Positions 57,412 to 63,836 of a stretch of 64,000 nucleotides of DNA are shown piece after piece. The position numbers and the translations under genes are program-made. The notes below the pieces were generated by a model. It was not told where the DNA came from and did not search any database. It worked only from the letters and a program-made list of their open reading frames with translations. Position 1 is the first letter of the stretch; each line of letters begins with the position of its first letter. Origin of the DNA: an uncultured Sphingomonadaceae bacterium (GTDB taxonomy: Bacteria; Pseudomonadota; Alphaproteobacteria; Sphingomonadales; Sphingomonadaceae); assembly GCA_947503245.1 (NCBI GenBank), contig CANNCV010000001.1, forward strand, positions 62,001 through 126,000, in the 5' to 3' direction.

Positions 57412-60042
57412 TTAATCCAAATTCGGTCTTAGCCAGCGTTTTGCTGTGTCCAGATCAACGCCGCGCCGCGCCGCATAGTCGGTCAACTGGTCTTCACCTA
57501 TACGGGCAACACCAAAATATTCTGACTGATCATGCCCAAAATAAAAGCCGGAAACCGCTGCTGTCGGTAACATGGCGAAGCTCTCCGTGAGAGTGATGCC
57601 GGTATTATCTGTTGCTTTTAGCAGATCGAACAGTGCCGGTTTTTGGCTGTGGTCAGGGCATGCAGGATAGCCAGGCGCTGGGCGAATACCGCGATATTGC
57701 TCTTTAATCAGCGCTTCATTGGTCAGCTGCTCATCGGGCGCATAACCCCAAAGTTCACAACGCACATGCTGGTGCAGCCGTTCGGCAAAGGCTTCGGCCA
57801 GACGGTCGGCAAGCGCTTTTAGCAAAATATCCGAATAATCATCATGGTCCGCTTTAAACCGCGCCAGATGCTCCTCAATCCCATGACCAGCAGTGACAGC
57901 AAAGCCGCCAATCCAATCCCCCGCCGGATCAATAAAGTCGGCAAGGCACATATTGGCGCGGCCTTCCCGCTTGGCGATCTGCTGGCGCAAAAACGGCATG
58001 CGTACAGTGCCTTCGTCCGCATCAATCAGCACATCATCGCCATCACGGCGACATGGCCAAAGAGCGGCAACCCCTTTTGCGGTCAGCCATTTTTCATCGA
58101 TGATCCGGTCGAGCATCTTTTGCGCGTCATCAAACAGATTGCGTGCACTGGGGCCGACAACACTGTCCTGCAATATTGCTGGATAATTGCCCGCCAATTC
58201 CCAACTGCGGAAAAATGGCGTCCAGTCGATAGTCTCGCGCAAATCGGCCAGATCCCAATCGTCAAAGACATGCAGGCCGGGCTGCTTTGGTGCAGATGCC
58301 TTGCCAGACATATCAGCCGCAAAGCCATTGGCGCGCGCTTTTTCCAGCGGTACCAGCTCTGTTTTGCCGCGCCCTGCCCTTTTGGTGCGGACATCCTCAT
58401 ACTCAGCGGCAGTGCGCTCGACAAAGGCCTCTGCCTGTGTTTCGCTGACCAAGGTTGAGGCAACACCAACTGCGCGGCTGGCATCCAGCACATGCACAAT
58501 CGGGCCATTATAGGCTGGGGAAATACGTAGCGCGGTATGCACTTTTGATGTTGTGGCGCCGCCAATGAGCAGCGGCATCGTCATATCAGCGCGCTGCATT
58601 TCCTCTGCAACCGTGACCATCTCATCAAGCGATGGCGTAATCAGGCCCGACAGGCCGATCATATCCGCATCATTCTCATTCGCGGCTTTCAAAATATCCT
58701 GCCACGGCACCATGACACCCAGATCAACAACCTCAAAGCCGTTACATTGCAGCACGACGCCGACGATATTTTTGCCAATATCGTGCACATCACCTTTGAC
58801 TGTGGCCATGATGATCTTGCCCTTGCCACGTGCGCCCTCTTCTTTTTCCGCCTCAATATAGGGGAAGAGGTGCGCCACAGCTTTTTTCATCACGCGCGCA
58901 GATTTGACCACTTGCGGCAGAAACATTTTGCCTGAGCCAAACAGATCACCCACGACATTCATGCCATCCATCAACGGGCCTTCAATCACTTCGATAGGGC
59001 GACCGTCACGCTGTTTCACCGCAAGACGCATTTCCTCTGTGTCATCGACAATATGGGCATCAATACCTTTGACCAGTGCATGCTCCAGACGTTTGGCCAC
59101 ATCATAGCCGCGCCATTCCGCCGCCGCTTTTTCCGCAACCGCATCGGTACCACGAAATTTCTCTGCCAGCGCGATCAATATCTCGGTCGCATCACCGCCA
59201 GACTTGGGTTCGCGGTCAAGCACGACATCTTCACAGGCATCGCGCAATTCCGGGTCAATATCGTCATAAATATCCAGCTGCCCTGCATTCACAATCGCCA
59301 TATCCAAACCAGCGGGAATAGCATGATAGAGAAACACGCTATGCATGGCGCGGCGCACAGGCTCATTGCCGCGAAAGCTGAATGACAGGTTGGACAGTCC
59401 ACCGGAAAAATGCACATGCGGGCAGCGCGCGCGGATTTCTGCAACAGCCTCAATAAAATCCAACCCATAGCGGCGATGCTCATCAATACCGGTGGCAACC
59501 GCAAAGACATTGGGGTCAAAAATAATATCTTCAGGCGGGAAGCCGATACCGGTGAGCAGCTTATAAGCGCGGCAACAAATCTCTATCTTGCGCTCTTTGG
59601 TGTCAGCCTGTCCTGTTTCATCAAAGGCCATCACCACAACCGCAGCGCCATAGGCCATGCATTTGCGCGCATGAGCCAGAAACTCCGCCTCACCCTCTTT
59701 CATGCTGATCGAATTGACAATCGGCTTACCCGACACGCATTTCAATCCAGCCTCAATCACTGACCATTTGGAACTGTCGATCATCACCGGGACACGGGCA
59801 ATATCTGGCTCAGCGGCGATCAGTTTCAAAAAGCGCGTCATTGCGACTTCTGCATCCAGCAGGCCTTCATCCATATTGACGTCAATAATCTGTGCGCCAT
59901 TTTCAACCTGCTGACGAGCGACCTCAACTGCTGCATCATAATCATCATTCATGATCAGCTTTTTAAACCGCGCAGAGCCAGTGACATTGGTGCGCTCACC
60001 AATGTTGACAAATTGAGTGGAACTGTTTTGGGTTTGGCTCAT
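57412..60042 (-). CDS. metH: Methionine synthase C-terminal part (pterin-, cobalamin-binding and activation domains)
   Basis: [62 protein letters not shown]-type activation domain. Confidence 0.93.
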
Positions 60043-60131
60043 GGCAACTTTTCTGTTCGTCATGCTGAAATATGGTCAGCTTGCATTTTGTTCTTCGGTT
60101 TAGTCCCTAGGCAATCGGGATAAAGGCATGC

Positions 60132-61196
60132 TCACGCCGCCATAGTGAAGGGTTCCAGACCAGACAGGCGAGTCTGCACAGGCAGGTCAGGGATCACCCG
60201 CGGCGCAGCATCTTTCACAGCCCTTGCAATCGCAGCAATATGCCCGGGCGTCGTACCGCAGCACCCACCAACAATATTGACCAGACCGCCCTGCAACCAC
60301 TCACCGATCAATGCCGCCGTCTGTTCGGGCAATTCGTCATATTCGCCCAAATCATTGGGCAGCCCGGCATTGGGATATGCCATCACCAAAGTATCGGACT
60401 GGCTTGCCAAAGCGGCCAGATGCGGGCGCAGCAAATCTGCACCAAAGGAGCAATTCAGCCCGATCGTCAAAGGTTTGACATGGCGTATAGCATGCCAAAA
60501 GGCCTCAACAGTGTGGCCAGACAAATTGCGCCCTGCCATATCGGTTATCGTCATGGAGATCATCAATGGCACATCGCGGCCTGCGGCCTCAGCGGCCTGC
60601 TGCGCCGCCATGGCAGCCGATTTGGCGTTGAGCGTATCAAAAATTGTTTCAATGACGATAAAGTCGACACCGCCCTCAATCAACGCATCGCATTGCTGAC
60701 GATAGACAGCGACCATCTGGTCAAAGTCAACTTCGCGAAAACCAGGATCATTAACGTCAGGCGATAGCGACAATGTCTTGTTGGTCGGGCCAACTGCCCC
60801 TGCAACAAAGCGCCTCTTGCCATCTTGTGCGGTTTTGCGGTCACAGACGCGCCGTGCCAGCCGCGCCGACTCCCTATTAATATCATCCACCAGATGCTCG
60901 GCATTATAATCGGCCTGGCTGATACTGTTGGCGCTAAAAGTATTGGTTTCAATAATGTCCGAACCAGCATCCAGATAGTCGCTATGGATCTGTTCCAATA
61001 TATCAGGCCGTGTCAGCGCCAATATGTCATTATTGCCTTTTTGGTCTGCCGTTACCTCTAACCCTCCGCGATAATCCGCTTCCTGCAAATTGGCATTTTG
61101 TATTGCCGTGCCATAGCCGCCATCAAATATCATGATGCGCTTTGCGGTTTCTGCTTGCAGATATTCGCGTGCGCTCAGCGCTGCATCATTGCTCAT
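60132..61196 (-). CDS. metH: Methionine synthase N-terminal homocysteine-binding part
   Basis: IMIFDGGYGTAIQ, ETNTF, GGCCGTTPGHIAAIARAV, LSGLEPFTMAA at the end. Confidence 0.92.
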   Translation of the reverse strand: MSNDAALSAREYLQAETAKRIMIFDGGYGTAIQNANLQEADYRGGLEVTADQKGNNDILALTRPDILEQIHSDYLDAGSDIIETNTFSANSISQADYNAEHLVDDINRESARLARRVCDRKTAQDGKRRFVAGAVGPTNKTLSLSPDVNDPGFREVDFDQMVAVYRQQCDALIEGGVDFIVIETIFDTLNAKSAAMAAQQAAEAAGRDVPLMISMTITDMAGRNLSGHTVEAFWHAIRHVKPLTIGLNCSFGADLLRPHLAALASQSDTLVMAYPNAGLPNDLGEYDELPEQTAALIGEWLQGGLVNIVGGCCGTTPGHIAAIARAVKDAAPRVIPDLPVQTRLSGLEPFTMAA

Positions 61197-62158
61197 TCCG
61201 CAGCCTCCGTCAGTGCCATTTTTTGGGCGCGAATGCCCAGCAAATGACAGATGGCGAAGCTGAGCTCCGCACGATTGAGCGTATAAAAATGGAAATGGCG
61301 AACGCCGCCCGCATACAGCCTGCGACACATTTCGGCAGCCACTGTCGCCGCAACCAGTTTTCGCGTCTCAGGGTGATCATCCAGCCCTTCAAACAGATCA
61401 TCCATCCATTGCGGAATTTGCGCGCCGCACATGCCAGCAAATTTACGGGTTTGCGCAACATTAGAAACTGGCAATATGCCCGGCGTGATCTCGCCGGTTA
61501 TGCCTGCTGCATCTGCGGCATCACGAAAGCGGAAATAAGCATCGGGTGAGAAAAAGAATTGTGTGATGGCCCGTGTCGCACCGGCATCCAGCTTGCGCTT
61601 CAAATTGTCCAGATCGGTTTGCGGGCAGTTGGCGTCAGGATGCGTTTCAGGATACGCCGCCACCGAAATTTCAAACGGCGCAATCTCTTTGAGGCCCTTC
61701 ACCAGATCAGCCGCACTGGCATAGCCTTCAGGGTGCGGTTCAAATGCTGCGCCTATTTTGGGCGGATCACCACGTAGCGCAACGATATGGCGCACACCCG
61801 CTTCCCAATATTGCTCCGCCACTTCGCGGATCTCTGCCTTGCTGGCCTCTACACAGGTTAAATGCGCCGCTGCGGGCACATTGGTTTCTTTAATGATCCG
61901 CGCCACTGTTGCATGGGTGCGCTCACGCGTTGAGCCACCTGCGCCATAGGTAACCGATACAAAACGCGGGTTCATTGGCGCCAAAGTGGTTAGACTGTCC
62001 CACAATGTTGCTTCCATCTTTTCAGACTTTGGCGGGAAAAACTCAAAAGAGATTTCTGCATCACCAGCCAGCCCCGCAAATAGCGGCGTGTCCAAAGCCA
62101 TACGTGCTTCGTGCATTTCTTGCAGGGACAGATTTTTTGCAGACTGAGTCATAGCCAT
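61193..62158 (-). CDS. metF: Methylenetetrahydrofolate reductase
   Basis: ISFEFFPPKSEKMEATLW, VSVTYGAGGSTRERTHATV, HFHFYTLNRAELSFAIC. Confidence 0.94.
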   Translation of the reverse strand: MAMTQSAKNLSLQEMHEARMALDTPLFAGLAGDAEISFEFFPPKSEKMEATLWDSLTTLAPMNPRFVSVTYGAGGSTRERTHATVARIIKETNVPAAAHLTCVEASKAEIREVAEQYWEAGVRHIVALRGDPPKIGAAFEPHPEGYASAADLVKGLKEIAPFEISVAAYPETHPDANCPQTDLDNLKRKLDAGATRAITQFFFSPDAYFRFRDAADAAGITGEITPGILPVSNVAQTRKFAGMCGAQIPQWMDDLFEGLDDHPETRKLVAATVAAEMCRRLYAGGVRHFHFYTLNRAELSFAICHLLGIRAQKMALTEAAE

Positions 62159-62172
62159 ATTCCGGGCATATT

Positions 62173-63210
62173 TTACGCCTTTTGTTGCTTTTTAGGGGAT
62201 GATTGTTTGTTGCGACTACCGGGTCGCGGAGATATTGTTCCGGCAATCGGTGATGATTGTAATTGGCCCAGCCATATTTTGATGGTCAGTGGTTCACCTT
62301 GCAGCGCCTCGCTGTCCACCAGTGTCATGCCGGCAGAGGCCATGGCATTATGGATTTGATGATCAGAAAAACCGAGGCGAACATGCGCATCGCGATCGCG
62401 CAATTCTTCCAGATTATGTGAAGCGAAATCGATAATCGCCAGCAATCCACCTGGTTTCAAAACACGCGCCGCTTCTAACAAAACCGCTTCGGGCAGATCT
62501 GCAAAATGCAGAACCTGATGCATGATCACATTGTCAAAGCGGTCATCAGCCAAAGGCAGAGCATAAAAGTCACCTTGCACCAGATCAATATTATCCGGAC
62601 CCAAAGCATCCAGCTTTGCACGGGCCAATCGCAACATTTCAGGGCTATTATCAACCGCAGTCACATGTTGCGCTCGCTCGGCAAACAGCTCGACAATGCG
62701 CCCCGTGCCGGTTCCCACATCCAAAAGCTGACCAATATCAGCGCTGGCCAAAACGTCACGCAGCAACGCTTCCACCATTTCTTCCGGCTGGTGTAATGAG
62801 CGTATCGCGTCCCATTGTTCGGCATGGCTGGCAAAATATTCTGCGGCACGCTCTGCCCGCTGCGCCCTTATCGCGGCCAATTTGGCAAGATCAGCCTGTA
62901 TCTGGCTTGCCAGAGCATGATCAAGAAAATCACCATCTGCCAATATTTGCCGCAAAGCCTGTTCGCGTGATCGGGAAGGAGCACTTGCATTGCCGCTCAA
63001 TGCCAGCCGCAAAAATACCCAGCTGCCTTCCTTGCGACGTTCAGCAAGGCCAGCTTCAACCAATATGCGTGCATGGCGCGATACTCTTGGCTGGCTCTGC
63101 TCTAGCACCAGCGCCAATTCACCAACCGCCAAATCCATATGCTGCAGCAACAATATGATGCGCAGACGCGTCTCATCAGCAAGAGCACGGAAGGTGGTTA
63201 AAAGGTCCAT
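62173..63210 (-). CDS. sahR: ArsR-family regulator fused to SAM-methyltransferase-like domain (SahR type)
   Basis: N-terminal ArsR wHTH (LADETRLRIILLLQHMDLAVGELALVLEQSQPRVSRHARIL) plus methyltransferase motif I LLDVGTGTGRIVELFAE; heads the metF-metH operon. Confidence 0.82.
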   Translation of the reverse strand: MDLLTTFRALADETRLRIILLLQHMDLAVGELALVLEQSQPRVSRHARILVEAGLAERRKEGSWVFLRLALSGNASAPSRSREQALRQILADGDFLDHALASQIQADLAKLAAIRAQRAERAAEYFASHAEQWDAIRSLHQPEEMVEALLRDVLASADIGQLLDVGTGTGRIVELFAERAQHVTAVDNSPEMLRLARAKLDALGPDNIDLVQGDFYALPLADDRFDNVIMHQVLHFADLPEAVLLEAARVLKPGGLLAIIDFASHNLEELRDRDAHVRLGFSDHQIHNAMASAGMTLVDSEALQGEPLTIKIWLGQLQSSPIAGTISPRPGSRNKQSSPKKQQKA

Positions 63211-63217
63211 GAAAAAT

Positions 63218-63246
63218 CATATAAAGAAATCTTTATATCCGGTCAA
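63218..63246 (-). promoter_or_regulatory. Predicted sahR promoter with SahR-like palindromic operator
   Basis: ATATAAAGA-aa-TCTTTATAT at 63219-63238; minus-strand -35 TTGACC (63241-63246), 17 bp spacer, -10 TATATG (63218-63223). Confidence 0.75.
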
Positions 63247-63331: not shown

Positions 63332-63616
63332 ATGCGCATTTTGTACTCACTGTTCATTCCAGCTCTGGCTCTGACACTGTCTGCTTGCGGCGGCAGCGAT
63401 ATTTCTGAGACAACAGCCTCCGAAACCAATGCTGAAGACACAATGCAGGCCGCAGAAGAAGGCGGCGCTATGCTTCCTGAAGGTGCGGGAGGGGCAATGG
63501 CACCAAGTGCAGAAGGTCTGGAAGGCGGCGATGACTCTGATGCATCGGCAATAGACAAATCTGTAGAGGATGCTTTGGCAGAGGCAGAGCGCGAAGCAGA
63601 TGCCATTGCCGAGTAA
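63332..63616 (+). CDS. Small acidic lipoprotein
   Basis: MRILYSLFIPALALTLSACGG lipobox followed by an acidic low-complexity region. Confidence 0.65.
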   Translation: MRILYSLFIPALALTLSACGGSDISETTASETNAEDTMQAAEEGGAMLPEGAGGAMAPSAEGLEGGDDSDASAIDKSVEDALAEAEREADAIAE

Positions 63617-63836
63617 ACATATTTTAAGCCGTATCGGGCCTGTCTTTGCGTCGGCAAGCATATTCATGCTGCTTGCCGGCTGCAATTCTTCAACCGATAA
63701 TGATGGGCCCGTTGGCGTAACGGCGGAAGAAGCGCAAATGTTAGACGATGCCGCAGAAATGCTAGACGAACGGCAAGCCGATTTTGATAAGGCGCTTTCT
63801 CAACAGCCCGATGCAAAACCGGCAGCTGAACAATAA
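63600..63836 (+). CDS. Small lipoprotein
   Basis: MPLPSKHILSRIGPVFASASIFMLLAGCNSS lipobox; overlaps the preceding gene by 17 nt. Confidence 0.6.
   Translation: MPLPSKHILSRIGPVFASASIFMLLAGCNSSTDNDGPVGVTAEEAQMLDDAAEMLDERQADFDKALSQQPDAKPAAEQ

Follow-up and report, generated by a model that had tools for sequence, protein, structure and literature searches.

The sahR operon and its promoter

Within the window (the whole 64,000-nt stretch of DNA analysed here) lies sahR (62173..63210, minus strand), which encodes a 345-aa protein assigned by Pfam and NCBIfam an ArsR-type winged helix joined to a class I methyltransferase-like domain. The N-terminal winged helix occupies residues 5–70 (Pfam HTH_5, 2.5e-10; NCBIfam HTH_metalloreg, above cut-off) and the methyltransferase-like domain residues about 145–290 (Methyltransf_11, 1.7e-26). 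In an alignment of 58 sequences, 95% or more keep the QSQPRxSRH recognition segment, the DxGxGxGR SAM/SAH motif and D187. A search of the PDB with SahR returned separate methyltransferase and ArsR matches only.

sahR is the first gene of the operon sahR-metF-metH1-metH2, all on one strand. The second gene, metF (61193..62158, minus strand; NCBIfam PRK09432 above cut-off, synteny), encodes methylenetetrahydrofolate reductase and is followed by metH1 (60132..61196, minus strand; partial NCBIfam metH match, sequence and synteny) and metH2 (57412..60063, minus strand; NCBIfam TIGR02082 above cut-off), which encode the N-terminal and C-terminal parts of methionine synthase. Relatives open to examination show the four genes in this order, except for distantly related ones and loci with flanks that break off early; the split of methionine synthase into two genes (57412–61196, minus strand) is likewise found in relatives. 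The ATG of metH1 at 61196 overlaps the metF stop codon and is preceded by GGAGG. We considered a rule in which the repressor has a weak translation start and the enzymes strong ones, but it was only partly borne out, because the Shine-Dalgarno sequence of metF is weak and metH2 has none. Divergent from sahR are two adjacent short plus-strand ORFs (63332–63616 and 63570–63836, overlapping as listed) with lipoprotein-like signal sequences (LSACGG and LAGCNS) and acidic tails.

Immediately 5′ of sahR is a 20-bp palindrome, ATATAAAGA-AA-TCTTTATAT (63219..63238), a candidate SahR operator whose arms are fully symmetric, with asymmetry confined to the central AA. Read along the minus strand, a −35 element (TTGACC, 63246–63241) is followed by 17 nt, a −10 element (TATATG, 63223–63218), the 7 nt ATTTTTC (63217–63211) and the sahR ATG (63210–63208), such that 36 nt separate the first T of the −35 from the ATG and the ATG lies 8 nt past the palindrome. 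The −35-like hexamer beside the palindrome and the promoter geometry are both kept in family orthologues, and TATATG itself is just a fair −10. Most of the promoter spacer is taken up by the palindrome, whose final five bases supply the TATAT of the −10, so that the operator overlaps the promoter. No Shine-Dalgarno pairing is predicted 5′ of the sahR ATG (+0.6 kcal/mol). An in-frame TGA (63219–63217) stands three codons (nine nt) 5′ of the ATG and therefore rules out a longer SahR N-terminus. From the promoter geometry, transcription is predicted to start at the A of the ATG or 1 nt before it (63210..63211, minus strand). Direct reading thus confirmed to the base an earlier note on this DNA, which had described a perfect 9-2-9 palindrome between TTGACC and TATATG that overlaps the −10, and 7 nt from the −10 to an ATG lacking a Shine-Dalgarno sequence. 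The palindrome is the one perfect 9-2-9 inverted repeat in the window, for which first-order Markov simulations give a chance expectation of 0.27; its significance therefore comes from its conservation and not from its rarity.

The palindrome in the genome and among orthologues

When the whole genome was scanned, matches to the palindrome within 3 mismatches were found at three positions only: at sahR (0 mismatches), 90 nt upstream of ahcY (1 mismatch) and 33 nt upstream of metK (2 mismatches). With metF and metH inside the sahR operon, these predicted sites cover a SAM-cycle regulon, and the three-site set matches the published core SahR regulon. The recurrence at ahcY and metK, which the earlier note had put forward as a check, was thus found at both genes and nowhere else beyond sahR. 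Its match of the operator to SahR also held, in that the site fits the published 20-bp SahR palindrome and Pseudomonas relatives (32–33% identity) carry a related ATATC...GATAT palindrome that fits the published gamma-proteobacterial ATC-N10-GAT. Of 61 genomes sampled from the order, 57 contained one or more sites with 3 mismatches or fewer.

We then scored 120 sahR loci of the family Sphingomonadaceae over 281 nt around each start, counting the palindrome as present when 14 or more of the 18 specified positions agreed. By this measure it lies upstream of sahR in 116 of the 120 sampled orthologues, and it was also seen in other families of the order and in Methylocystis and Hyphomicrobium relatives, consistent with the conservation expected from the earlier note. 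A strict pattern for the fused layout was found in 33 of 151 family genomes and in 0 controls, the former being a lower bound because no mismatch was allowed. The two nearest genomes, which belong to the same genus, are laid out in the same way, their ATG standing 10 nt after the palindrome. Across 109 family members only the −35 region and the palindrome are conserved; the DNA upstream of the −35 region is at background, its information content not exceeding about 0.2 bit per position. Some loci carry additional repeats: one (L180 in genome G085) has tandem palindromes before sahR, the second with an adjoining TTGACC and near the ATG, and in seven (L212, L219, L225, L226, L230, L241 and L252) a further half-site repeat, which contains TTATA, lies after the palindrome and before the ATG, mostly at loci whose palindrome has a right arm ending in TATGT.

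Position of the sahR start codon

The start codon lies 5–15 nt after the palindrome in 108 of the 116 family members (median about 10) and within 17 nt in 109. In the 108 cases in which the −35 is recognisable, its first T stands 34–40 nt before the A of the ATG in 95%, most often 36 nt before it. At a canonical promoter the +1 position lies about 35–36 nt beyond the corresponding T, and leaders of about 0–5 nt are therefore expected. In addition, the closer the −35 is to the palindrome, the farther the ATG is from it (rho −0.44, p 2e-6, kinship ignored), a pattern that would arise if the polymerase, rather than the operator, fixed the place of the ATG. An SD-like motif is present in 2 of 108 orthologues (counts that ignore kinship) and ATG is the start codon in 104 of 108; these start codons were picked by rule, and for 59 of 109 the upstream sequence offers no other in-frame start. 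In about a third of the family TTGC replaces TTGAC, often with a spacer to TATAT of about 15 bp, and the −10 in these members may lie 1–2 nt further on.

Seven of the 116 depart from this layout, the best palindrome and the chosen ATG being 26–166 nt apart. Three of them (G085, G104 and G175) also show a palindrome or an ATG that lies closer; the other four (G168, G084, G080 and G157) show neither. In G080 and G157 (loci L258 and L261, from one genus) the palindrome is 166 nt upstream of sahR and not beside the start codon; to judge from their sequences, the compact layout there was lost or never formed.

The other targets and sahR outside the family served as controls. In up to 30 family genomes, the operator lies 59–106 nt upstream of ahcY, where 20 of 21 genes have a Shine-Dalgarno sequence; for metK its upstream distance varies between 8 and 78 nt. 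Outside the family, where start codons were again taken by rule, the palindrome is mostly further upstream of sahR (23–47 nt in Hyphomicrobium, 27–83 nt in several families of the order), often with a Shine-Dalgarno sequence. A close start therefore characterises sahR of this family; it is not a general property of the operator or of these genomes. A transcript beginning at or next to the ATG, as the earlier note had proposed, is well supported by this comparison, both by the conserved promoter-to-ATG distance and by the count of 2 in 108 for SD-like motifs, and we infer a leaderless start. Our literature searches found no leaderless start-site mapping with Sphingomonas and no published mapped 5′ end for any sphingomonad sahR.

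One alternative accepts the SahR operator and regulon and places the promoter further upstream, so that the palindrome would be transcribed and the ATG used from a leadered message without a Shine-Dalgarno sequence. Our start site comes from promoter geometry and not from a mapped 5′ end, and about half of the leaderless units of Zymomonas also have a leadered upstream start (PMC7566282). However, the sequence upstream of the −35 region is unconserved in the 109 family members despite conservation of the −35 beside the palindrome, the position of the ATG follows the −35, and a search of the 64-kb window found no Rfam elements, on which ground a riboswitch or structured leader was rejected. We consider a leadered transcript improbable. 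Another alternative is a miscalled translation start, with the true start downstream behind a normal leader; both the earlier note and the ORF caller took the first ATG after a stop. Nevertheless, the in-frame TGA sets a 5′ limit, and a start at the next Met (residue 25) would delete the first helices of the DNA-binding domain, in which A9, R15, L16, R17 and L21 are kept in at least 95% of the 58 aligned sequences; alignments with orthologues begin at residue 1–7. The in-frame TGA and the conserved N-terminus led us to reject this possibility, to which we give the least credence of all.

A different objection is that a palindrome by itself does not name its binder, particularly at an AT-rich site, where look-alikes are commoner: it could serve a different regulator as operator, or belong to a terminator or structured RNA, with the ArsR-methyltransferase gene nearby only incidentally. 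Against another regulator are the restriction of genomic sites to sahR, ahcY and metK and the fit to the published SahR palindrome and, in Pseudomonas relatives, to ATC-N10-GAT. The distribution of SahR itself points the same way. No SahR match at E ≤ 1e-30 was found in 16 of 151 family genomes, G019, G030, G068 and G082 among them. Of the SahR-less genomes checked, most (including G019, G068, G075 and G082) are also without a clear ahcY site, the exception being G081, a fragmented assembly of 380 contigs. For a terminator or structured RNA, there is neither a G+C-rich stem nor an Rfam match. Another regulator or a chance palindrome was rejected on the three-site regulon and the orthologue survey, and we regard this whole class of explanations as very unlikely. 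Taken alone, the assignment of the 20-bp palindrome as the SahR operator is nearly certain in our judgement.

Proposed regulation and comparison with known systems

Our main reading, to which we assign a probability of about 0.82, combines these elements into an autoregulated, leaderless SahR promoter of sahR-metF-metH1-metH2. A SahR dimer on the 20-bp palindrome, covering the spacer and the −10, would keep RNA polymerase off the promoter. Rising S-adenosylhomocysteine would bind the methyltransferase-like domain, SahR would leave the DNA, and methionine-cycle genes would be expressed at the sahR operon, ahcY and metK. The transcript would start at or within about 1–3 nt of the AUG, and sahR would be translated without a Shine-Dalgarno sequence; a start at or near the AUG is most likely because the start codon is 8 nt beyond the palindrome. 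S-adenosylhomocysteine as the ligand, repression and autoregulation are taken from published work on SahR; occlusion as the mode of repression and the start site to the nucleotide are our own deductions, and a low yield of the repressor would follow by analogy with acuR. More speculatively, Sphingomonadaceae may have fixed a compact SahR unit that packs −35, operator, −10 and start codon into about 40 bp, following loss of the sahR leader in an ancestor of the family. The leaderless start would then hold repressor yield below that of the enzymes and tie its synthesis to the ribosome's leaderless initiation route, making repressor supply a matter of design; we put this forward tentatively, as possible but doubtful.

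A leaderless metabolic repressor common to most of the genera sampled would be a natural experiment on why regulators lose their leaders, for which leadered sahR orthologues in sister families provide a comparison group. The leaderless reading of sahR also predicts transcription starts that can be checked in alphaproteobacterial 5′-end datasets.

The regulator, operator and regulon are those of a known system, published for lineages that include the Sphingomonadales. In the parts available, the study of the SahR regulon of Proteobacteria by Leyn et al. 2014 (PMC4239095) reports SahR regulons in all 7 Sphingomonadales genomes examined, SahR having first been shown in Desulfovibrio alaskensis. 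The system described there shares with ours an ArsR-family regulator, a 20-bp palindrome, autoregulation and the core targets sahR, ahcY, metF, metH/metH2 and metK; the available main text makes no mention of leaderless transcripts. Autoregulation is further supported in Ensifer aridi, in which sahR expression is highest in a sahR deletion (PMC8877191). As described in the same parts of PMC4239095, SamR of Xanthomonadales is a SahR-like ArsR regulator of methionine genes that, as here, lies beside metH1/metH2, but it differs in a 24-bp motif with ATC-N10-GAT and a regulon without ahcY.

The available portion of a start-site study of Zymomonas reports 119 leaderless transcripts at a cut-off of 5 nt (PMC7566282), and such transcripts are therefore not rare in alphaproteobacteria; sahR is not mentioned in the available main text. 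SahR regulons are thus on record, but to the extent covered by these main texts the promoter anatomy of sahR is not set out, and its leaderless variant has apparently not been described previously. Lambda cI and Tn1721 tetR (as cited in PMC3017554) resemble our reading of sahR in being repressors made from leaderless messages, but they are unrelated proteins, belong to mobile elements and have other operator layouts. The closest precedent is the leaderless operon acuR-acuI-dddL of Rhodobacter sphaeroides (PMC3017554), which shares with the sahR operon a repressor gene placed before the pathway enzymes, an inverted-repeat operator over the promoter, the lack of a Shine-Dalgarno sequence, a promoter no more than about 36 bp away from the ATG and a layout kept in relatives. 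AcuR differs in being a TetR-family repressor with acrylate as inducer (PMC3017554). Its AUG start was proved by 5′-RACE and its lower translation relative to the downstream genes was established with lacZ fusions (PMC3017554), whereas for sahR the start is deduced from geometry and a lower yield would hold by analogy only.
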